A stretch of DNA of 64,000 nt. Source: Salinimonas profundi (lineage in GTDB: Bacteria > Pseudomonadota > Gammaproteobacteria > Enterobacterales > Alteromonadaceae). The DNA is taken from positions 1 to 64,000 of the forward strand of contig NZ_JABBXD010000001.1 of the NCBI RefSeq assembly GCF_014750655.1, written 5' to 3'. Positions 21,397 to 30,616 of this stretch are shown here, piece by piece; position 1 is the first letter of the stretch; the number at the start of each line of letters is the position of its first letter. The position numbers and the translations under genes were made by a program. The notes below the pieces were generated by a model. The model was not told where the DNA came from and made no database searches. It worked only from the letters and a program-made list of their open reading frames with translations.

Positions 21397-22296
21397 CTAC
21401 ATGCTCATATCCCAATCATGCCGTTCTTTATTTCCACGAGTCAACGCCGACTCAATTGCATCGATTTGTGAAGTAATCGTTGCGCCGACGTATGGCCAGA
21501 ACTCTTTACGATTCAGGGTGCGCTCTCTAATACCTTTAGGAACAAATCGAGACATTTCTCTTTCAAAGTCTGATTTCGTTTCATGCGAAGCCAGAATGAA
21601 TCCGCGATGTATCTCTAGACTGTCGAGAAATTCATCCTGAGTTTTACCACGCATCTCGAGCTTCTTTTTCACAAGCGACGCTTCAATTGGCACATTTTTC
21701 TGGTTTAGCCATGTCAGGTCCCACACGTCCCGGGGTTTAATCCGGCGCTCTCGAAACGCTAACGTAATAAGCTTGTCGGCAAGTATCTCTTTGGCACTTT
21801 GCACAGGAATTGGTAAACCTTCGACAAGCGAGGTTACTTCATAGAAATTTTTAGCCGGACGGCGAACCTTATCAAACGAGTCATAGCGGCAAATGTCGAT
21901 TTGCATCTTCTGTGAAGATAAGTCTGGGCGCTTAGGGTTTTTGACGATGGTCACTTTCCAGGTTGAAGTGTCGCCGCGGTCTATGACAGGCTCTCGCACA
22001 CTGACGTCCAGCATGAATTTATTTTGCAAGTTTGACTCTATATCAGCCGATAGGGACGAGAAGTCTTTTGTTGAAAAATGCGCGCCTCCGGTAAAGTCTA
22101 AGTCTTCTGACAGGCGGTTAGAGCCGTGACAAAGATGCAGGGCCGTTCCGCCAATAAAAGTGAGATGTTCTAATAACCCTTCTTTATGCAGAATGTACAG
22201 CAACTCATGATGCACAATCTCTTTTTCTACGACATCTTCCAACCCTATCAATTGAGGGTTGTTCTCAATTGCCCGGGTAACCAAAACACTAATCAT
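21397..22296 (-). CDS. abiEii: AbiEii/AbiGii-family nucleotidyltransferase toxin
   Basis: A roughly 299-residue nucleotidyltransferase (PF08843). The signature FIGGTALHLCHGSNRLSEDL (near 48-67), with the following DF, carries the GG and catalytic acidic residues. Further family features are QIDICRYDSFD and the helical KEILADKLITLAFRERRIKPRD. Known: AbiEii is a GTP-binding nucleotidyltransferase toxin of the type IV AbiE phage-defence system. GAAGAGG lies six bases before ATG 22,296, which I prefer; an in-frame ATG at 22,311 is possible. The gene overlaps the upstream antitoxin (8 or 23 bases), so translation is coupled. Looks intact. Confidence 0.9.
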   Translation of the reverse strand: MISVLVTRAIENNPQLIGLEDVVEKEIVHHELLYILHKEGLLEHLTFIGGTALHLCHGSNRLSEDLDFTGGAHFSTKDFSSLSADIESNLQNKFMLDVSVREPVIDRGDTSTWKVTIVKNPKRPDLSSQKMQIDICRYDSFDKVRRPAKNFYEVTSLVEGLPIPVQSAKEILADKLITLAFRERRIKPRDVWDLTWLNQKNVPIEASLVKKKLEMRGKTQDEFLDSLEIHRGFILASHETKSDFEREMSRFVPKGIRERTLNRKEFWPYVGATITSQIDAIESALTRGNKERHDWDMSM

Positions 22297-22828
22297 TGAT
22301 GACCTCTTCATTTATCATATCAGTATTTCTCCCGACCCGCTTTAAATCTGCAATCGCCCGCTTGGCTTTGGCCCGAAAAATCCGTGCATCAGAATCATAA
22401 TACACATCTTCCTCGGTCAGGTTTTTGCGACTGGTGTGCGTAAATTCGATTGTCCCATACCGCGTCTCGATTTTACCACTTCGGCCCTGTGTCATGACGG
22501 TAAGGTAGCCAAATGGGATTTGGGATATTATCCCTTGTCTAGAAAGCTCAGTTTCTAAGCTGACATATATGAATTTATTCCAATGCAGACGAGAGGCAAT
22601 ATATTCAAGCACTCCTACTTTTATAGGCTCATTGCCAGGCAATGCATACATGTCCCGGCAAACTTTCAATAGCCACCTATTTGAAACACCTTTAGACAGT
22701 TTTTTTCGAAAATTATCATTAACACTTTCTTCAGTTGCCAATGCGATATCGTGGGTTGTAAATATCGCAAAATGACCATCTTTAATGGCTTTATGTAATG
22801 TAATGGTGACCTTCAAAGCAAAGTTCAT
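22289..22828 (-). CDS. abiEi: AbiEi-family antitoxin
   Basis: A roughly 179-residue partner of AbiEii: an N-terminal winged-helix-like part (FAIFTTHDIALATEESVNDN, then LSKGVSNRWLLKVCRDMYAL) and a C-terminal domain needed for antitoxicity. Known: AbiEi binds inverted repeats in its own promoter and represses the operon. GGAG lies upstream of ATG 22,828; GTG 22,834 would add two residues. An imperfect inverted repeat about 65-90 bases upstream fits the operator. Family assignment rests mainly on the N-terminal pattern and the overlap with abiEii. Confidence 0.83.
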   Translation of the reverse strand: MNFALKVTITLHKAIKDGHFAIFTTHDIALATEESVNDNFRKKLSKGVSNRWLLKVCRDMYALPGNEPIKVGVLEYIASRLHWNKFIYVSLETELSRQGIISQIPFGYLTVMTQGRSGKIETRYGTIEFTHTSRKNLTEEDVYYDSDARIFRAKAKRAIADLKRVGRNTDMINEEVIND

Positions 22829-22890
22829 TAACACATTTTCTCCACTTGGGTGAAATTATGTATAGATAATAGTATATTTATTTAAATGTA

Positions 22891-22919: not shown

Positions 22920-23950
22920 TGAGCATGAATTGGTTTGTATACTGTGGGCGAATTTTTGGACAGGTGTTGATTGCAAAAGGGTGGAGATAACAGGTCATGT
23001 ACTGAGCTTTACCGGATTGCAAACCGACCACTATTGTATTGTTGGTCTCTGCACAAGTTCGCGCTCTTCAAAGGCGGATTGTGTGTCTCTGGTGAATATA
23101 TCTGCAGTCGAGTAGCGGCAGCTAAACCTTCTTCGGGGTTGATTATAAAGCCATCGAATTCTTTGAGCAGGGTTTGCTTCGATGTTGGACCGTAATGTCG
23201 ATCTACCTCTACCTAGACTTCTTATGGAGGCCCCCCATTGATGAAACATCATCAACAGATCGATAAAGTCTGTCTTGCCTGGCACGATGGCTCAGTCTGT
23301 AAGTGAAAGTATCTCGGTGATACAACAACTTGACTGGTCAATACGCCCAGCGACGAAGGGCGCGTTAGGGCTCTACCCAGATTCACTGACACACCCATAG
23401 AGAGGCATACTATGCTTAAAAGGAGTGTCTATGACCAAGCTATTGCAGTAACTCAGCATCATGAAAACGGTTCATCCTCTCTCGTCGACGACTAACAAGA
23501 TTCGACAACGCTTTGAAAAAAGCATTGGCCTGCTCGCGAGTCTAAGGTTGACTATATATTTCGGAATCCTACCGTTTGGTTGATGAAGCTAGGCCTGGTG
23601 GGGGCTCTACAAAAAACCTGTGGCTGGAAAGACACGTTAGATGGCGTCGGACTACCTTGTAAAATCGCAGAAGGATAGGCTAGGAGATGTCGGCAGTTGT
23701 TAGCGACTACGTGAATCCTTTAACTTTATAAGCAATTATATTTAAAAAATATAATTATAAGATTTCAATATAATGGCGTATGAGATACCTCATTATACAT
23801 ATGCTCGCCAGGCCCGCTCTCCGTTGCAGCGCCATTCCTTCGATATGACCCTTTGCGCCAGATGCTACGACCGGCCCTAAGTCGCGATTCTGTCCAAGTC
23901 CGCCCATAAGGAATATACTTGTGAAATATCACGCACAAGTGGATCAAGCA
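22920..23950. other. One-kilobase region with only eroded coding traces
   Basis: No convincing gene. On the minus strand a coherent frame without a start runs about 23,204 to a TAA at 23,009-23,011 and contains HYGPTSKQTLLKEFDGFII and INPEEGLAAATRLQIYSPE; I do not recognise it. A 35-codon plus-strand frame starts at 23,773. An AT-rich near-palindrome lies around 23,735-23,760. Left of the cassette array I looked for an integron integrase and found none. Confidence 0.4.
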
Positions 23951-24022
23951 ATGAGAATCGTTTCGTTTACAAAAGCCCGAAATGAGCGAAGATTACGAAA
24001 AACAACGTCAATTAATGCGTGA
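23951..24022 (+). pseudogene. Phd/YefM antitoxin N-terminal fragment
   Basis: ATG 23,951 opens MRIVSFTKARNERRL and stops at 24,020-24,022. MRIVSFTEARNSLK is the common start of gammaproteobacterial Phd/YefM antitoxins. Only the first dozen residues fit, so this is a scrap at most. Confidence 0.4.
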
Positions 24023-24107
24023 CAGTCTCAATTTAGAATCCACCAAAACACTCCATGAAATGGAGGTAGAAATTGATTACTTACACCGTAGACGCTTTGA
24101 TGTATAA
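23982..24107 (+). CDS. Small cassette protein, 41 aa, unknown
   Basis: A 41-residue frame from ATG 23,982 to TAA 24,105-24,107: acidic/basic, helical (MSEDYEKQRQLMRDSLNL, then TLHEMEVEIDYLHRRRFDV). The stop lies within the left core of the following attC-like site, as in real cassette genes. It overlaps the YefM-like scrap in another frame, so it may itself be the tail of a larger broken gene. No family recognised. Confidence 0.4.
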   Translation: MSEDYEKQRQLMRDSLNLESTKTLHEMEVEIDYLHRRRFDV

Positions 24108-24252
24108 CAAACCTTAGTATCAATCCCAAGTGCAACACACTCACTGCGTTCGTTGGGACGCATACACGCGCGCAGGGCGCGCTGCGGACACAAACACAGC
24201 GCCGCTTAGCGATTGTAACGCAGTGTTTGTGCCGTTTATGCGAAAGTTAGAT
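24101..24252 (+). repeat. attC-like site 1
   Basis: The left core is GTATAAC (24,101-24,107 region) followed by AAACC, and the right core is GTTAGAT (24,246-24,252). Inner arms CACTGCGTT and AACGCAGTG can pair. About 150 bases long, in the range of VCR-type sites. The pairing of the outer boxes is imperfect. Confidence 0.6.
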
Positions 24253-24264
24253 TTAGGAGGAGGA

Positions 24265-24633
24265 ATGCCAGATAAGCCAAAAACTGTCGAAGAATATATT
24301 TCTTCCAAACCCAAAAAGGCACAGGAGAGACTAGGGGAGTTGCGTAGATATTTAAAGCTTGCCGATCCAAATGCGGATGAAGAGCTAAAATGGGGTAAGC
24401 CTGCATTTGTAAATAATGGAATACTTTATGTATACGCAGTCTTTACAAAGCATATCAGCCTCCACCCAACCCCTTCAGTGATAAAGGCTTTGCGCAAAGA
24501 GCTAGAATCATTCAAGTTGTCTGATAATACAATCCATTTTCCTTTGGAAGATCCAATCCCAAAAGAATTAGTTACAAAAATTGCTAACTTAAGAGTCTTC
24601 GAGAAAAATAACAAAGGTATCGGCTGGAAATAA
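24265..24633 (+). CDS. DUF1801 / YdhG-like protein in an integron cassette
   Basis: A 122-residue protein starting MPDKPKTVEEYISSKPKKAQ, followed by LADPNADEELKWGKPAFV and a segment with HISLHPTPSVIKAL, typical of the DUF1801 (YdhG-like) fold. An excellent AGGAGGAGG precedes ATG 24,265; a longer frame begins at 24,130 but would run through attC site 1. Known: DUF1801 proteins are frequent integron cassette genes of unclear function. It lies between attC-like sites 1 and 2, which makes it one complete cassette. Intact. Confidence 0.85.
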   Translation: MPDKPKTVEEYISSKPKKAQERLGELRRYLKLADPNADEELKWGKPAFVNNGILYVYAVFTKHISLHPTPSVIKALRKELESFKLSDNTIHFPLEDPIPKELVTKIANLRVFEKNNKGIGWK

Positions 24634-24642
24634 AGACAAAAA

Positions 24643-24724
24643 ATCTAACAAGGTAAATGCAATCGGGCGGTAAAAAGCGTCGCTTCGCTCAGCTTTTTAC
24701 CGCCAGTGATTTGCGGCGTTAGCT
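24643..24724 (+). repeat. attC-like site 2
   Basis: The left core ATCTAAC fits RYYYAAC exactly; the right core is GTTAGCT (24,718-24,724). Between them the inner arms include a perfect 13-bp stem (GGCGGTAAAAAGC / GCTTTTTACCGCC) and the outer arms pair partly (GCAATC / GATTTGC). 82 bases: the clearest site in the array. Confidence 0.85.
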
Positions 24725-24763
24725 GCCAGTTACAGATCAAAGATTGAACATGCTTAAATCTAA

Positions 24764-25085
24764 ATGAGCAGGCAGAGTACCTGTTTCAACAAAAAAGACC
24801 TTTTGCGTACCATTCAAAACCAAACAAAATGGGCGTAAGGGGTACAAAGTCAGTGAGTCGCCGGTTAAGCCTGAGGTTAATTACACTCTATCATTTTCAG
24901 ATGCGTTAGAAAAACTTAGGGGATATAAAGTGGCTGGTTGGCGAGACTACATCCCTGGAAGTACCAAGGGTGCAAGACAAGGAATTGGCTGGGTCACGGA
25001 AGCTGATGCTAATAAATTACTCGCCGGAAAAGACGACCTAAAACGGGTCGTACTGTTCGAATCACTTTCGGACGTCCTTGAGTAG
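24764..25085 (+). pseudogene. Unknown cassette gene, probably frameshifted
   Basis: The plus frame open from 24,768 to TAG 25,083-25,085 encodes about 105 residues but has no ATG, GTG or TTG near its start. It contains KTFCVPFKTKQNGRKGYKV, EVNYTLSFSDALEKLRGYKV and GIGWVTEADANKLLAGKDD. The nearest ATG (24,764) is in another frame, and an A6 run nearby would restore the reading with a one-base change. Stop and following attC core lie five bases apart, as expected for a cassette gene. No family recognised. Confidence 0.5.
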
Positions 25086-25087
25086 CA

Positions 25088-25211
25088 GCTAACAAACGAC
25101 TATAGCGTGCGCCACGGAGCACTGGGACGCAAACACGCAGGCGGCTTCGCCATTTTTGCCTGCGTGTCTGCTCCTTTGTCTATTGATGCACGTGAAGTAT
25201 CGCTGTTGGGC
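25088..25211 (+). repeat. attC-like site 3
   Basis: Left core AGCTAAC with AAACG, right core GTTGGGC (25,205-25,211), which fits GTTRRRY. Outer boxes pair (AACAAACGA near the left end with TCGCTGTT at the right, plus GTGC/GCAC), and the inner arms contain ACGCAGGC / GCCTGCGT. About 124 bases. Confidence 0.7.
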
Positions 25212-25305
25212 TGCTCTGTACGTAAAGCAGACATTGTACTTTTCCCATGAAAACACCGAATTTGGCGTTTCGTGGGAAACGGGTGTTACTATGAAGTCTC
25301 AGTAA
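25207..25305 (+). pseudogene. 3' fragment of a second copy of the HEPN-like cassette gene
   Basis: Directly after attC 3 an open frame without a start reads LYVKQTLYFSHENTEFG, then ETGVTMKSQ and a stop at 25,303-25,305. It matches the C terminus of the gene at 27,772-28,158 (LKQTFHILSHGNTEYDF, ETNNTMNSQ), and the DNA similarity runs a little past both stops. So the upstream half of a related gene was lost at, or before, the cassette boundary. It sits 38 bases upstream of the OLD-type gene. Confidence 0.65.
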
Positions 25306-25343
25306 AAAGCTGTTATTCACTTTAATCTACTTTCGGAGAGATC

Positions 25344-27023
25344 ATGAAACTAAGGAAGGTAATCATCCATAATTTTAGGTCTATATTAGATGCCACATTT
25401 GAAGTGTCGAACTATAGCCTTATTGTTGGTGAAAACAATTCAGGGAAAACGAACCTACTCAGCGCATTAAGGGTATTCTACGAGGATGGTGGTCTAAAGT
25501 TCGAAAAGAATAGGGATTTCCCAAAGATTGATACGATTGACAATGAATCATGGATGGAATTGCACTTTTATACGTCGGCCGAAGAACAAGATTCATTGAA
25601 AGATGACTATAAATCTCCCGACAACCTTCTCAAGGTTCGTAAGTATTTTATGTCTGATCAGGGACGAGTTAAGGCTAAGCAGTCAAATATTTACGCGTAT
25701 GAAAATGGAACTCTTTCTGAAAGTAACTTTTATGGAGCCGCGAATGTGTCATCATCAAAGCTCGGCTCAATAATTTATATACCCGCTGTAAGCAAAGTGG
25801 AGGACACTTTAAAAACCACCGGCCCTTCGCCATTCCGTGATTTGGTGAATTTGGTAATGAAAAAGGTCGTTGCAAGTAGCAATGTCTTTGAAGAGCTAAA
25901 TAATGCCTTCTCAAAGTTTAACGATGAATTTAAAGGTGAGGAAGCTAGCGGGCTATCAATAGATGGGATTAAGTCAGGCGTAAACGCCGAGCTATCGCAG
26001 TGGGGAGTTGGAATTGATATTGAGGTCTCTCCGATAAAATCAGACGACATTGTTAAAACCCTGCTTAAACCACATATTGAAGATCATAAGCTAAACGGGC
26101 AGCGCGTCGATATATCTTCATTCGGGCAGGGCTTACAAAGGCATCTGATTTACACTCTTATCAAGATGTCTTCTCAGTACAATACCCCATCCAAACCATC
26201 AAAGAAGGATTTCAACCCTGATTATACGTTACTTCTATTTGAAGAGCCTGAAGCATTCCTGCACCCCTCACAACAAGATGTGCTATTTAGAAGCCTAAAA
26301 GATCTAGGTGACTCCAACGGACAGCAGGTAATTGTATCTACGCATTCGTCGCAATTCGTTGGAAAATCAGTAAGCGATCTAACTTCAATCTTACGTTTGC
26401 ATCGGAGTGATAAGCACTCTGTCGCCCATCAGCTAACTGAAGTGACGATGCAAGAGGTTTTAGATAACAACTTGGTTGCTGCCAGAGAATTCGGCGAAGA
26501 CCAAGACCCAAATTTCGATGAAGAAGTTAGAATGGCAGATGAGGAGTTAAGGTATTTTCTCTGGCTTGATTCCGAGCGTTCTAGTCTATTCTTCGCCCGT
26601 CACGTTTTGGTATGCGAAGGTGCTTCTGAAAAAATATATTTTGACTACTTGGCTGACAATGAGTGGGACTTTCTAAGGGAGTCCAGAGTTTATGTGTTGG
26701 ATTGTCTTGGCAAGTATAATCTTCATAGATTTATTCATCTTCTAACCGAGCTAGGTATTCCACATTCTGTAATTTTTGATGGGGATAACAATAGAGGTAA
26801 TCATGCCACGTGGAATGGAATTGTGACTGATGCATCGACACCACTAACTTCGGGAATTCATCAATTTACAGAAGATCTTGAAGATTTCCTCGGAATACCT
26901 AAACCACAAGGACGAAATGATTTGAAGCCGATAAATATAATCAAGCACCACGTTGATGGTTTAATTGATGGACAGAAGAAAAGCGAGCTTGAAGCCATAG
27001 TGAAGGGGTTGGTCGGTGTTTAG
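25344..27023 (+). CDS. OLD-family ATPase with Toprim domain (ATP-dependent nuclease)
   Basis: A 559-residue protein with an AAA_15/21-type ATPase half, Walker A GENNSGKT at residues 29-36, an ABC-like signature region with SSFGQGLQRHL near 255-265 and Walker B LLLFEEPEAFLHP near 296-308. A C-terminal Toprim domain carries VCEGASEKIYFDYL near 427-440 and VIFDGDNN near 478-485, giving the metal-binding Glu and DxD. Known: OLD-family nucleases include P2 Old and the GajA subunit of Gabija. No UvrD-like GajB partner lies beside it. GGAGAG precedes the ATG. Its stop sits in the left core of attC 4, so it is a cassette gene of unusual length. A phage-defence role is inferred. Confidence 0.88.
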   Translation: MKLRKVIIHNFRSILDATFEVSNYSLIVGENNSGKTNLLSALRVFYEDGGLKFEKNRDFPKIDTIDNESWMELHFYTSAEEQDSLKDDYKSPDNLLKVRKYFMSDQGRVKAKQSNIYAYENGTLSESNFYGAANVSSSKLGSIIYIPAVSKVEDTLKTTGPSPFRDLVNLVMKKVVASSNVFEELNNAFSKFNDEFKGEEASGLSIDGIKSGVNAELSQWGVGIDIEVSPIKSDDIVKTLLKPHIEDHKLNGQRVDISSFGQGLQRHLIYTLIKMSSQYNTPSKPSKKDFNPDYTLLLFEEPEAFLHPSQQDVLFRSLKDLGDSNGQQVIVSTHSSQFVGKSVSDLTSILRLHRSDKHSVAHQLTEVTMQEVLDNNLVAAREFGEDQDPNFDEEVRMADEELRYFLWLDSERSSLFFARHVLVCEGASEKIYFDYLADNEWDFLRESRVYVLDCLGKYNLHRFIHLLTELGIPHSVIFDGDNNRGNHATWNGIVTDASTPLTSGIHQFTEDLEDFLGIPKPQGRNDLKPINIIKHHVDGLIDGQKKSELEAIVKGLVGV

Positions 27024-27089
27024 CAAGCGCATGTTGTCGGACTGGTTTTCCGCAGCACTTTAAACCAGCCGCAAATGCGGGTGTTAGTT
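27018..27089 (+). repeat. attC-like site 4
   Basis: Left core GTTTAGC (one mismatch to RYYYAAC, and it contains the TAG stop of the OLD gene), right core GTTAGTT (27,083-27,089). The outer arms GCGCAT / ATGCGG pair, and the inner stem is ACTGGTTT / AAACCAG. 72 bases, closely related to site 5. Confidence 0.8.
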
Positions 27090-27103
27090 TTCAGGAAATA
27101 TGG

Positions 27104-27694
27104 ATGCCTATAGAGACAGATGAAGAGCTCGCGATAGCTGTCAAAAAAGCTGGTCTATTACTTCAAGATATTCAGGATTATTGTGGCCGCGAAAATCGTC
27201 CAGACGCAAAGGTTCGCTTTCCTCGAGGCTACCTTAGAACTGCCAGTGAACAGCGTAACCGGCTCAAATTTGTTCAGTCGAAAGATTTGAAAGCGAATTT
27301 ATCATATACCTTAATTTTAACAGATAGCATTCTTTGGCTATTAGTCAGAACAGATATAGCTGCAACAGCTAAAGACATGCTTATAAAAATTTTTATGTTC
27401 CTTGGGGGCGCATTAATAGAAGGCATACTATCTGATTACCTTACAGGTATAGTCGGTAAGCAACGTTCTTTCAAAAAAAGAACTTAATACCTCTTGGAAA
27501 GCGACATTATATCTCAATCATTGCATGATGATTTGAACTGGGTTTGGGATATGAGAAATAACATGCACTTATTTTTGCTAGATGGTCGAGAATATGAAAA
27601 CTCATACAATGCAACTTCACAAGTCCGGTGCGCGAATACGTTTAAAGAATTAATTAAGATTTTAGATGTAAAAGGTCGTATAAATGAAAGCTAA
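27104..27694 (+). pseudogene. Unknown helical cassette protein with an in-frame ochre
   Basis: One frame of 196 codons starts at ATG 27,104 (MPIETDEELAIAVKKAGLLL) and is cut by TAA at 27,485-27,487. The same frame then continues without any other stop to TAA 27,692-27,694, which lies in the left core of attC 5. The upstream part includes LKANLSYTLILTDSILWLL and the downstream part DLNWVWDMRNNMHLFLLDG. The RN near the end of a helical protein recalls HEPN-type RNases (R-x4-6-H), here RNNMH, but I cannot assign the family. A single nonsense mutation is the simplest reading; two short proteins are less likely. Confidence 0.6.
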
Positions 27695-27758
27695 CAAGCA
27701 CATGTTGCCGGACTTTTTTTTGTTGCGCTCACACCAGCAGAAAATGCGGGCGTTAAAC
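27689..27758 (+). repeat. attC-like site 5
   Basis: Left core AGCTAAC, right core GTTAAAC (27,752-27,758), a perfect GTTRRRY. The arms AAGCACATGTTG and AAAATGCGGGC parallel those of site 4. 70 bases. Confidence 0.85.
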
Positions 27759-27771
27759 GCGAGGACGGATA

Positions 27772-28158
27772 ATGGACTTCATCATGAAAAACAAGGTAAC
27801 TGAAGTCACCTTGTATAGAAGCGCTTTAGAGTATCTGAAAGTAATCAATATCACCCAGAAAAGTGAGGAGCGCTGCCCCCAGACCGCATTCGGTTTTATT
27901 GCATCTCTTGCAAGCGAGCTGGCGTTAAAGGCCTTCCTAACTAAACAATGTGTACCTGAAGGTTCCTTGAGAAATATTGGTCACAACTTAGTACAAGCTT
28001 GGTCAAAGTCCGTTGTGCTTGGACTAAATGTTGATCAAGAGGTGACTCTGATGCAGAGGGCTGAGATGTGCTTGAAGCAGACATTTCATATTCTTTCCCA
28101 TGGAAACACAGAATATGACTTTTCAGAGGAAACGAATAATACTATGAATTCTCAGTAA
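27772..28158 (+). CDS. Small helical cassette protein, HEPN-like, unknown
   Basis: A 128-residue protein with GAGGACGG just before ATG 27,772. It contains LYRSALEYLKVINITQKSE, FGFIASLASELALKAFL (a helix typical of HEPN/MNT-associated proteins), GHNLVQAWSKSV and the tail TEYDFSEETNNTMNSQ. The GHxLxxxW pattern is often seen in small HEPN-type proteins, but no RxxxxH motif is clear. A fragment of a paralogue lies before the OLD gene. First gene of a two-gene cassette between attC 5 and 6. Function unknown. Confidence 0.6.
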   Translation: MDFIMKNKVTEVTLYRSALEYLKVINITQKSEERCPQTAFGFIASLASELALKAFLTKQCVPEGSLRNIGHNLVQAWSKSVVLGLNVDQEVTLMQRAEMCLKQTFHILSHGNTEYDFSEETNNTMNSQ

Positions 28159-28196
28159 TAAGCTGTCAGGGCATAAAAGGATTCGAGCACTAGTCT

Positions 28197-29036
28197 ATGC
28201 AATTGGCATTGGTCAATAACAAAAAAGCCGAAGCATTTCCAAAAGGAAGAGGTTTTTGTCCTACTTGTGGCGCAGAAGCTATTGCAAAGTGCGGTCCGAG
28301 AGTTATGCATCACTGAGCACACCTCAGAAAAAGGGATTGTGATCCTTGGTGGGAGAATGAGACTCCTTGGCATCGAGAGTGGAAGGATAGATTTCAATTG
28401 GAATGCAGAGAAGTATCTCATGTCGCTAAAGATGGAGAAATTCACAGGGCAGATATAAAGACTCCAACAGGCATCGTTATTGAAGTTCAACATTCCTCAA
28501 TGACTGATGCTGAAAGAATATCTAGAGAAGAGTTTTATAAAAACCTTGTTTGGGTAATTGATGGTTCCGTTTTTGATGACAACTTTGATATTTATCACAT
28601 GCTGCCTGATCCGCGGTCTGAGTTAGCTCAAGATTTAGTATGGAGTAAAGCCAAACGGCATATGCATGGAGCCAATACTGGAATCTTTTTCCGGCTCTCT
28701 GAGGCCATTGAAGAAGACCCAGAGGTTACGAAAGCAACTCTCAGGGGAGGTGGGATTCATGGAATATATGGTATTGAGGAAGAAATAAAAGAAACATATA
28801 ACGGCTACCACCAATATGATTGGGTACGACCAAGAAAAACATGGTTAGATGCGAATTGCCCAGTTTATATTGATTTTGGTGATGAATACCTTATAAAACT
28901 AGAAATATACGATGAGTCTGGCCTTAATTGTATACGTTTAGTTTCAAAGCTAAAGTTTGTGCATGATGCGATGACGGAATCAGAGGCGCAAGATATTGCT
29001 ACCAGATTTTATCCGATTAACAGTGAGCATCCCTAA
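28197..29036 (+). pseudogene. CoiA-like nuclease-family protein with an in-frame UGA
   Basis: One frame of 280 codons from ATG 28,197: MQLALVNNKKAEAFPKG, two-Cys motif CPTCG, KCGPRVMHH, TGA at 28,314-28,316, then AHLRKRDCDPWWENETPWH, a segment with DGEIHRADIKTPTGIVIEVQ (likely PD-(D/E)xK core, D and ExQ) and HSSMTDAERISREEFYKNL. Relatives of this CoiA-like group read HWAH at the stop position, so UGG became UGA. The rest has no stop until 29,034-29,036 in attC 6. Known: CoiA acts in natural transformation in Gram-positives; these shorter relatives are uncharacterised. An internal ATG at 28,398 could express the nuclease part only. Confidence 0.75.
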
Positions 29037-29098
29037 CGAAGTGCTGCTAGGGACAAACCTTCGCTACGCTCCGATTTGCCCAGAGCACGGCGTTTGAC
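29031..29098 (+). repeat. attC-like site 6 (right end of the array)
   Basis: Left core CCCTAAC (contains the TAA stop of the CoiA-like gene), right core GTTTGAC (29,092-29,098), one mismatch to GTTRRRY. The outer arms GTGCT / AGCAC and inner arms GGACAAACC / GATTTGCCC pair. 68 bases. No further site follows. Confidence 0.75.
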
Positions 29099-29852
29099 CG
29101 TCCGTTACTTGTCTAAAGCGGAAGTCTTTTCTTCAGGTAATGACCGTCGCGTTCCCGCTCACAGGAGACATCCAACGGCTATAGCCTGAACAACCGAATC
29201 ATACTATCGTGTCTGCATATAGAAAAGTTGAAGCACGAGGAATTAAGTTGACGCCACACTAATAATTTCCTTCTAGGACGGCTCAGCCAGTCCAAAGTAC
29301 TTCGAAATTTAGTCAACAGGCTGTTGGCCAAATGCTTCGTTAAGCTAGCAGGAGACAGTTTTTAGTCGCCGTGAATGAACGAGAGCTTTGAACTAAATCA
29401 CTCACTATAGTAAGTAGCTTTCCCAAATGTTCACTTTACTAGTGAACGATTAATGAGCACTCCAACGAAACAGATAAATCTGCTTCGTAAAGCGGGAAAA
29501 GTCGTCGCTGAAACAGTCGCTGATCTCATTTTATCCGAACGAGTATCTTCGCCGTCGCGCTTCCTATATGGATTGAGTCTTGCACCACAGCGTCGATAGC
29601 ATCAACAATTATCGAATTTTTATTCGAAATCATAGGTATACCTCTATCATCTTATGAGAAATGGGGAGTAGTGGGTCGATATCGCCATCTTTTCCGATGT
29701 TTGTGTATCTCCGGCTTGCCTTCCATCTGTGTGCGCATTTTAGCCTAAGAGCACCAGTAAAGCGTGGTACGCATTCTCATCTTGCCGTAAAATCTCAATT
29801 TAAGTGGCAATGGCCAAATATAAACGTTAATAAATTGTGTAATTGAAAAATC
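29099..29852. other. Region between the cassette array and fadR
   Basis: About 750 bases with no supported gene. A 48-codon plus frame at 29,453-29,599 (MSTPTKQINLLRKAGKVVAE, then TVADLILSERV) looks somewhat protein-like but has no ribosome site. It marks the border between accessory DNA and the conserved fadR block. Confidence 0.4.
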
Positions 29853-29905: not shown

Positions 29906-30616
29906 ATGATTTACAAAGCCCAGAGTCCTGCCGGATTTGCTGAAGAGTACATTGTTGAGTCGATTTGGAGTGGACGTTTCCCTCCGGGCACAATCTTGCC
30001 TGCTGAACGTGAATTATCAGAGCTGATTGGTGTGACACGCACCACATTGCGCGAAGTGCTCCAGCGCCTGGCCCGGGATGGGTGGCTCACCATCCAGCAC
30101 GGTAAACCAACAAAAGTGAATAACTTCTGGGAAACCTGCGGGCTGAATATTCTTGAAACGCTGGCGCGGCTTGACCAGGAAGGAATACCTGAACTGGTAG
30201 ATAATCTTCTGGCGGCAAGAACTAACCTGAGCGCTGTTTTCATTCGTGGTGCTATCAGAAATAATCCTGAAGAAGCCATCAACATTATCGCCCGGTATAA
30301 AGATCTTGAAGCAGACGGTATGGCCTTTGCTGAATACGATTATCAGATGAACCATGATTTGGCTCTGGCATCCGGTAACAATGTTTTTGTGCTGATGATG
30401 AACGGGTTCCGTGGTTTATACTCGCGCATTGGCGGATTTTTCTTTTCGCATGAAAGTGCCCAGGAAGTTGCACGTAACTTTTATAAAGAATTGTTAGAAG
30501 TGGCGCAGCAGCATGATTACGATGCGGTACCTGTGGTAGTCAGAAAATACGGTATTGAATCGGGTAAAGTCTGGCAGACGGTGCGCGAAGAAATGCCTAA
30601 AGATTTAGTAGACTAA
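29906..30616 (+). CDS. fadR: Fatty acid metabolism regulator FadR
   Basis: A 236-residue GntR-family regulator of full length. The N-terminal winged helix has the near-invariant FadR block [40 protein letters not shown] and [19 protein letters not shown]. The C-terminal acyl-CoA-binding helical domain includes [12 protein letters not shown] and [16 protein letters not shown]. Known: FadR represses beta-oxidation genes and activates unsaturated fatty acid synthesis genes; long-chain acyl-CoA releases it from DNA. The nearby beta-oxidation genes (fadH, dienoyl-CoA isomerase) and fabB in this window fit its regulon, although I find FadR-like sites only before fadR and accD. Confidence 0.97.

Follow-up and report, generated by a model that had tools for sequence, protein, structure and literature searches.

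We propose that a run of small plus-strand genes in the marine bacterium Salinimonas profundi is an integron cassette array that lacks an integrase of its own, and we consider this reading very probable. The run occupies positions 23,951 to 29,098 of the 64,000 nucleotides that were analysed (hereafter the window; the start of contig NZ_JABBXD010000001.1), and it has the form of a cluster of attC sites lacking integron integrases (CALIN). The proposal is based on five attC recombination sites recognized by covariance models, on stop codons that fall in or just before the R'' core, on the single orientation of the sites, on an intact IntI gene carried by another contig, and on two cassettes that are shared with other genera over stretches ending at recombination cores. 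Each unit would consist of a gene and its attC site, and an integron integrase would have brought the cassettes in by recombining folded attC strands at G^TT.

Six attC-like sites, S1 to S6, lie in one (+) orientation among plus-strand genes, as the initial annotation had described; the gene-like units number seven. At all six the stop codon of the unit falls inside R'' or at most 9 nt ahead of it, and attC cores are present at the sites. To avoid circularity, the sites were searched for with three covariance models whose training sites all lay outside the window. R1 used 13 attC of the array on contig C4 of this genome and of the sister species G004, and R3 used 16 diverse attC; R2 used seven plasmid attC that were picked for likeness to S4 and S5 and is thus not fully independent. 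Across the window, R1 returned S3, S1 and S2, R2 returned S4 and S5, and R3 returned all of S1 to S5, each delimited at its cores, with no further match to any model up to E=10; a run of R3 over 26 other loci (357,505 bases) gave 0 matches. Two of the sites are of the genus type, S1 (24102-24252; R1 E=7.5e-6 as 24153-24252, R3 4.2e-4 as 24102-24252) and S3 (25087-25211; R1 1.4e-9 as 25087-25191, R3 0.044), the R' of S3 being ambiguous, with an end at 25191 by R1 versus 25211 or 25291 by R3. S2 (24643-24724; R3 9e-5, R1 0.013 in the window and 0.81 genome-wide) has a 13-bp inner stem, as had been claimed for it, and the stem is perfect. S4 (27018-27089; R2 5.1e-23, R3 1.1e-5) and S5 (27689-27758; R2 4.9e-8, R3 0.037) are followed by a weak sixth site, S6 (29031-29098). 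The five sites scored exceed the four that the initial annotation had asked of a covariance search, and the two or more attC that define a CALIN are present. Rfam gave no match up to E=5 between 23 and 30 kb.

The array had been called an orphan, with no integrase seen, and this holds for the window but not for the genome. The sole match over the cut-off lies on contig C4 of this genome (G000; C1, C2 and so on denote contigs), at G000:C4:263877-264821, where TIGR02249 scores 441 bits against a cut-off of 265 over a 324-aa frame without a stop; the locus is thus without a nearby intI in the CALIN sense. A genus-type attC array adjoins the C4 gene, and R1 gives 27 matches genome-wide at E<=1 on C4, C13, C6, C1 and C2, S1 to S3 included, of which those with the poorest scores, such as S2, are uncertain (E up to 0.81) and one merely echoes a site from the other strand. 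Away from C4 the matches lie on C13, C6, C1 (at 486 kb) and C2. A dispersed array without an integrase is a known kind, because Alteromonas genomes have integrase-less attC regions: in passages of PMC4119200 that compare such genomes, attC occur in two further regions without an integrase, the third region being missing in one of the strains, and the integron regions are reported as expressed.

Homology between genomes that is bounded by the crossover and by R'' or R' was found for two units. The gene at 27104 matches relatives on plasmids of Alteromonas stellipolaris and Salinimonas at 76% over 27082-27696, from the crossover to R'', and the CoiA-like gene with its attC is shared with a genome of another genus (G368) at 90% over 28169-29092, although its left end does not fall at the crossover. 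Other genera hold cassettes of this array or attC of its types; the CoiA-like homology reaches 29092, and the relatives of the 27104 gene carry a different type of attC. More distant CoiA-like genes (58-73%) on Agrobacterium and Rhizobium plasmids had no attC in the stretches looked at. Sites like S4 and S5 occur in Salinivibrio, Catenovulum, Pseudoalteromonas and Alteromonas at 75-89% identity, with a weak match on an Escherichia coli plasmid (75%, E 0.06), and in six of the seven regions read a same-strand coding sequence (CDS) ends inside the match or within 50 nt before it. S4-like attC directly follow a caspase-family gene on a Salinivibrio kushneri plasmid (L161) and stand after a SIR2 and ATPase pair on a Catenovulum adriaticum plasmid (L162). 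Plasmid DNA similar to S2 gave weak matches, and none similar to S6 was found. Homologues of the OLD gene in Veronia and Oceanisphaera end at sites that look attC-like by eye; a third close homologue (L051) is cut by a contig end.

The cargo comprises one intact OLD-family nuclease gene, one DUF1801 protein, two units without a known family and three damaged genes (3/7). The intact gene (25344..27023, +) encodes 559 aa with both an ATPase and a TOPRIM domain (Pfam AAA_15 8e-34, OLD-like_TOPRIM 1e-16; PADLOC Old 8.7e-59), which bears out its earlier naming as an OLD/Toprim protein; it is a predicted nuclease and is 94% identical to a Pseudoalteromonas rubra protein. It resembles the OLD-family nucleases (PADLOC Old, GajA) in its N-terminal ATPase and TOPRIM, and differs from GajA in being a lone gene: no GajB partner was found for a Gabija system, nor any second plus-strand open reading frame (ORF) of at least 80 aa from S3 to S4. 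The wider family is common, with at least 2272 proteins at E<=0.001 among the matches listed, whereas at E<=1e-60 the gene occurs in one of 394 genomes of the order, namely this one. The smaller units to its left, all on the plus strand, are a 41-aa ORF read from the sequence that ends in R'' of S1 and has no Pfam match (23982..24107), the DUF1801 gene (24265..24633; PF08818, 2.2e-11), and a 105-codon open frame with an unsettled start codon and no Pfam or PADLOC match (24768..25085).

To the right of the OLD gene, every cassette gene is damaged. The gene at 27104..27694 (+), of no assigned function, is cut by a TAA at 27485-27487 and has intact relatives on two plasmids. The ORF at 27772..28158 (+), described as HEPN-like by eye, turned out to be chimeric. 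A 149-aa family matches about its first 91 residues, the remainder is a repeated element read in frame, and neither Pfam nor PADLOC gives this truncated ORF a match up to E=1. A two-gene defence cassette of HEPN and partner was considered and rejected because the 3' end of the ORF is the repeated element. The CoiA-like gene (28197..29036, +) carries a TGA at 28314-28316, its CoiA_N match (0.0011) is below the Pfam cut-off, and over its larger piece it is 91% identical to an intact 279-aa relative in G368. With two in-frame stops and one deletion fusion, the array is, as read from these frames, decaying. The OLD protein, and formerly the products of other cassette genes, may act against phage, a role that we regard as putative. 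The cassette-array interpretation of the initial annotation is therefore partly supported: the attC array, the OLD gene and the CoiA-like gene stand, and the integrase located elsewhere, the HEPN label, which no family match backs, and the damage to three of the seven genes do not accord with it.

The element that forms the end of the chimeric ORF is about 100 nt long and stands to the left of two of the cassettes. Copy 1 (25205..25313, +) ends near the G^TT crossover, 30 nt before the OLD gene, and copy 2 (28058..28166, +), 77% identical to it, precedes the CoiA-like gene. A third copy lies at G000:C6:200453-200565, where C6:200453-202520 holds a lone element with an attC. Across the family it occurs in at least 21 of 295 genomes, at least 10 of 52 genera and at least 35 places, lower bounds since at most three candidates were scored per genome. 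Stretches were examined around 32 places outside this genome, plus L099, and yielded 39 matches, 37 of them distinct (two in L240 repeat L236) and one a partial match of 27 nt. The attC near them were taken as all R3 matches at E<=1 and four matches to R1 only, excluding one R1 match in L099 (E 0.064), an echo on the opposite strand. A downstream attC lies within the stretch in 26 of the 39 rows, the first being in the same orientation in all 26; the other 13 have none, some of them near contig ends. For 15 of the 37 distinct matches the first attC begins at -12 to +9 nt relative to the stop codon of the ORF behind the element. Conservation falls straight after ...AATAAGCTG^TTA, as at a crossover. 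On plasmids the element was found in 11 records, all from Alteromonas, and A. macleodii Te101 has a plasmid with it; in the four that were read (L267-L270) an annotated CDS, in one case a GIY-YIG nuclease, begins 25-78 nt past the match, and R3 places an attC after it in L267 (E 0.023), L268 (0.17) and L269 (0.0025) and none in L270.

Two ideas about the element were set aside. A hairpin seen by eye was rejected, RNAalifold giving 0 pairs on 32 copies, and an attI of a known integron lineage was dropped as a reading, as the element was not found beside intI in 11 intI loci (L009, L112-L121), nor in L014, L124 or L122. Literature searches on integrons and defence, which could not be made with the sequence of the element, met no description of it.

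Some of the attC ends at element loci also share a right-flank motif, GTTGAAnGTCCGCTnTTTGTC. With up to five errors it is present at 14 of 41 such ends, 13 times exactly at R' and once (L216) 7 nt beyond it; two rows are one site, which gives 13/40, and four more ends carry it with six errors. Where arrays lack the element, 0 of 30 attC have it (Fisher 1.7e-4 on 14/41), a comparison in which most of the 30 are array-internal, with another cassette following, and in which one of the 14, that in L233, is on the upstream side of its element. The background at up to five errors is 11 matches in 78 unrelated loci (830 kb), all of them with four or five errors. At R' of S6 the motif (29092..29113, +) is six errors from the consensus, a level reached by 5 of 4000 shuffled 42-mers with seven window positions tried. 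On plasmids it marks the end of the attC in L267 and L268, stands at the attC preceding the element in L269, and comes after a second CDS, without a called attC, in L270.

The genes behind the element suggest a bias in cargo toward defence-type genes. Among 30 element-linked proteins, with two duplicates and ORFs below 80 aa dropped, ten exceed the Pfam cut-off: seven of defence type (PIN_12, DndB, KAP_NTPase, PIN_8, Mrr_cat, ThsB_TIR, AAA_15) and three others (DUF6680, DUF4145, an FkbM methyltransferase). Cassette proteins from arrays without the element exceed it in 5 of 25 cases (Imm41, LRR, GNAT, Barstar, TonB_C), none of defence type. The difference (Fisher 0.012) is suggestive, given that both sets were classed by Pfam, that the defence-type class is our own label and that element-linked proteins are longer. 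The ThsB_TIR, KAP NTPase and Mrr_cat genes in L241, L224 and L237 are candidate defence cassettes.

The borders of the locus bear on its history. On the right lies a plus-strand gene (29906..30616), presumably a FadR/GntR-type regulator, that is matched once in every one of 24 genus genomes; over all 40 genomes it is found in 37, among them this one. This border gene is directly adjoined by a gene that we take to be nhaB in four of five other genus stretches (G009, G006, G012, G015); nhaB was not found in the G003 stretch. In G004, the nearest species by the border gene, about 24 kb separate the two genes, and this interval holds a degenerate intI with two TGA (G004:C1:1457764-1458468, L122) and one attC cassette to the left of the border gene; a second intI, over the cut-off, lies elsewhere in that genome. 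Homology to G004 on the right side starts at window position 29192. On the left, 91 nt are kept of a presumed helicase-type gene that is a 956-aa frame in the G004 island (23435..23524, +; 80% identical to G004:C1:1452331-1452421 over 91 nt); besides that in G004, the 40 genomes gave a single match, on C13 of this genome (71%). A 72-nt piece of a dispersed repeat (23368..23439; 82-88% to copies in G003 and G007, 77% to G004) is probably an end of insertion sequence type. It abuts the helicase-gene fragment, possibly as a deletion scar. In G009, partial intI matches below the cut-off lie at C1:322165-322980 and 2957183-2957599, the second with two stops. The AbiE pair that had been placed next door is indeed a neighbour (21397..22834; PADLOC AbiEii 5.5e-93, AbiEi 3.2e-56), on the opposite (minus) strand, with no attC match there, and outside any cassette.

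Several observations weigh against the array as we read it. A fold criterion for attC named five candidates in 24000-29200 (40 shuffles gave 0-4, mean 1.65), none of them S1 to S6, and was dropped in favour of the covariance models for this failure. A ranking of arm duplexes that includes many non-sites placed S6 1st, S4 3rd, S3 7th and S2 17th, with S1 and S5 outside the 25 listed. S6 scores 10.3 bits with R3 (E=0.68, filters off over 9 kb), the second of six matches other than S1 to S5; weak as it is, its cassette is shared with another genus. R3 calls no attC behind the CoiA-like gene of G368. The Veronia and Oceanisphaera sites were among those on which R3 was trained, so that what R3 scores for them is no test. 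The in-frame stops, being in a draft assembly, could be sequence errors. If the fold result is taken at face value, the locus could be a fixed defence operon with attC-like palindromes arising by chance, which we judge highly improbable: models trained outside the window match these sites only in 64 kb, R3 is silent in the 357 kb of other loci, and the OLD gene was found in one of 394 genomes of the order. Nor was a fixed gene string, which would speak for such an operon, seen; in single-gene searches no two of these genes were neighbours anywhere else, the string as such not being searched for. As to where the array came from, we lean slightly toward the remnant of an integron that stood in a shared nhaB-fadR island and lost its local intI in this genome. 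This loss would be read from the sister species, as no intI remnant was detected in the window with either IntI query, a further point against it. It is less probable, though still a serious rival, that the C4 integrase acted in trans and placed the cassettes at secondary (attG-like) sites in the island, the array then not being left by a local integron. The attC arrays at several genome sites with one intact intI, the lone element and attC on C6, and a mention of IntI1 use of attG sites in the part of PMC12901181 consulted are consistent with this. The degenerate intI beside an attC cassette in the same G004 interval argues for a local integron instead, as do the plasmid relatives of the 27104 gene, which directly follow DNA that is 84-88% identical (96-97 nt) to the intI side of that degenerate integron.

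Tentatively, and at well below even probability, we propose that the element and GTTGAAnGTCCGCTnTTTGTC are the left and right halves of an integrase-less platform for docking and expression, which would hold runs of cassettes between G^TT crossovers. Such a platform would be dispersed over the chromosomes and plasmids of many genera of the family and would favour nuclease, NTPase and TIR-type defence genes, making them expressible away from any integron promoter. Against it stand the missing conserved fold, the absence of the element from beside intI in the loci checked, and the lack of a convincing empty junction: a 26-nt pattern searched with up to three mismatches in the 295 genomes gave two matches, both with three mismatches and neither convincing, which counts against a pre-existing target repeat. 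There is likewise no sigma-70 consensus match inside the element; the sole match in 25080-25400 lies outside it, with its first base at the start codon of the OLD gene, and such a match is expected by chance. The alternative, in which the element is no docking site but travels within cassettes as a promoter or leader, has a chance that falls only a little short of even. It would fit the position of the element 1-46 nt upstream of a script-picked ORF in 38 of 42 rows, a weak point as any ATG, GTG or TTG within 160 nt was allowed, and gene-less promoter cassettes are described for Vibrio in a section of PMC11014356. The same absence of a sigma-70 match and of conserved RNA structure speaks against a promoter or leader as well, and so does conservation that stops directly after GTTA, as at a crossover.

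The locus resembles the CALIN class of IntegronFinder (PMC9024848) in having two or more attC in one orientation, no intI nearby and few sites, and differs from it in that an intact intI lies on another contig and two cassettes follow a repeated flanking element. It likewise resembles the integrase-less attC regions of Alteromonas, found in a genome with one intI region, for which the consulted part of PMC4119200 describes no bracketing element. Integrons have been put forward as reservoirs of defence genes (Darracq 2025 and Kieffer 2025, as cited in an excerpt of PMC12409362), and the present array is similar in holding defence-like cassettes among attC sites, with the difference that defence is putative here and three genes are damaged. 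In itself the array is one more decayed CALIN in a known pattern. The excerpted discussion in PMC12409362 raises the question of whether defence cassettes far from the integron promoter are expressed and whether internal promoters exist. The flanking element bears on this question: a shared sequence of about 100 nt just upstream of unrelated, often defence-like cassettes, together with a matching right flank, would make it directly testable, and would also offer a sequence by which more defence genes could be found.

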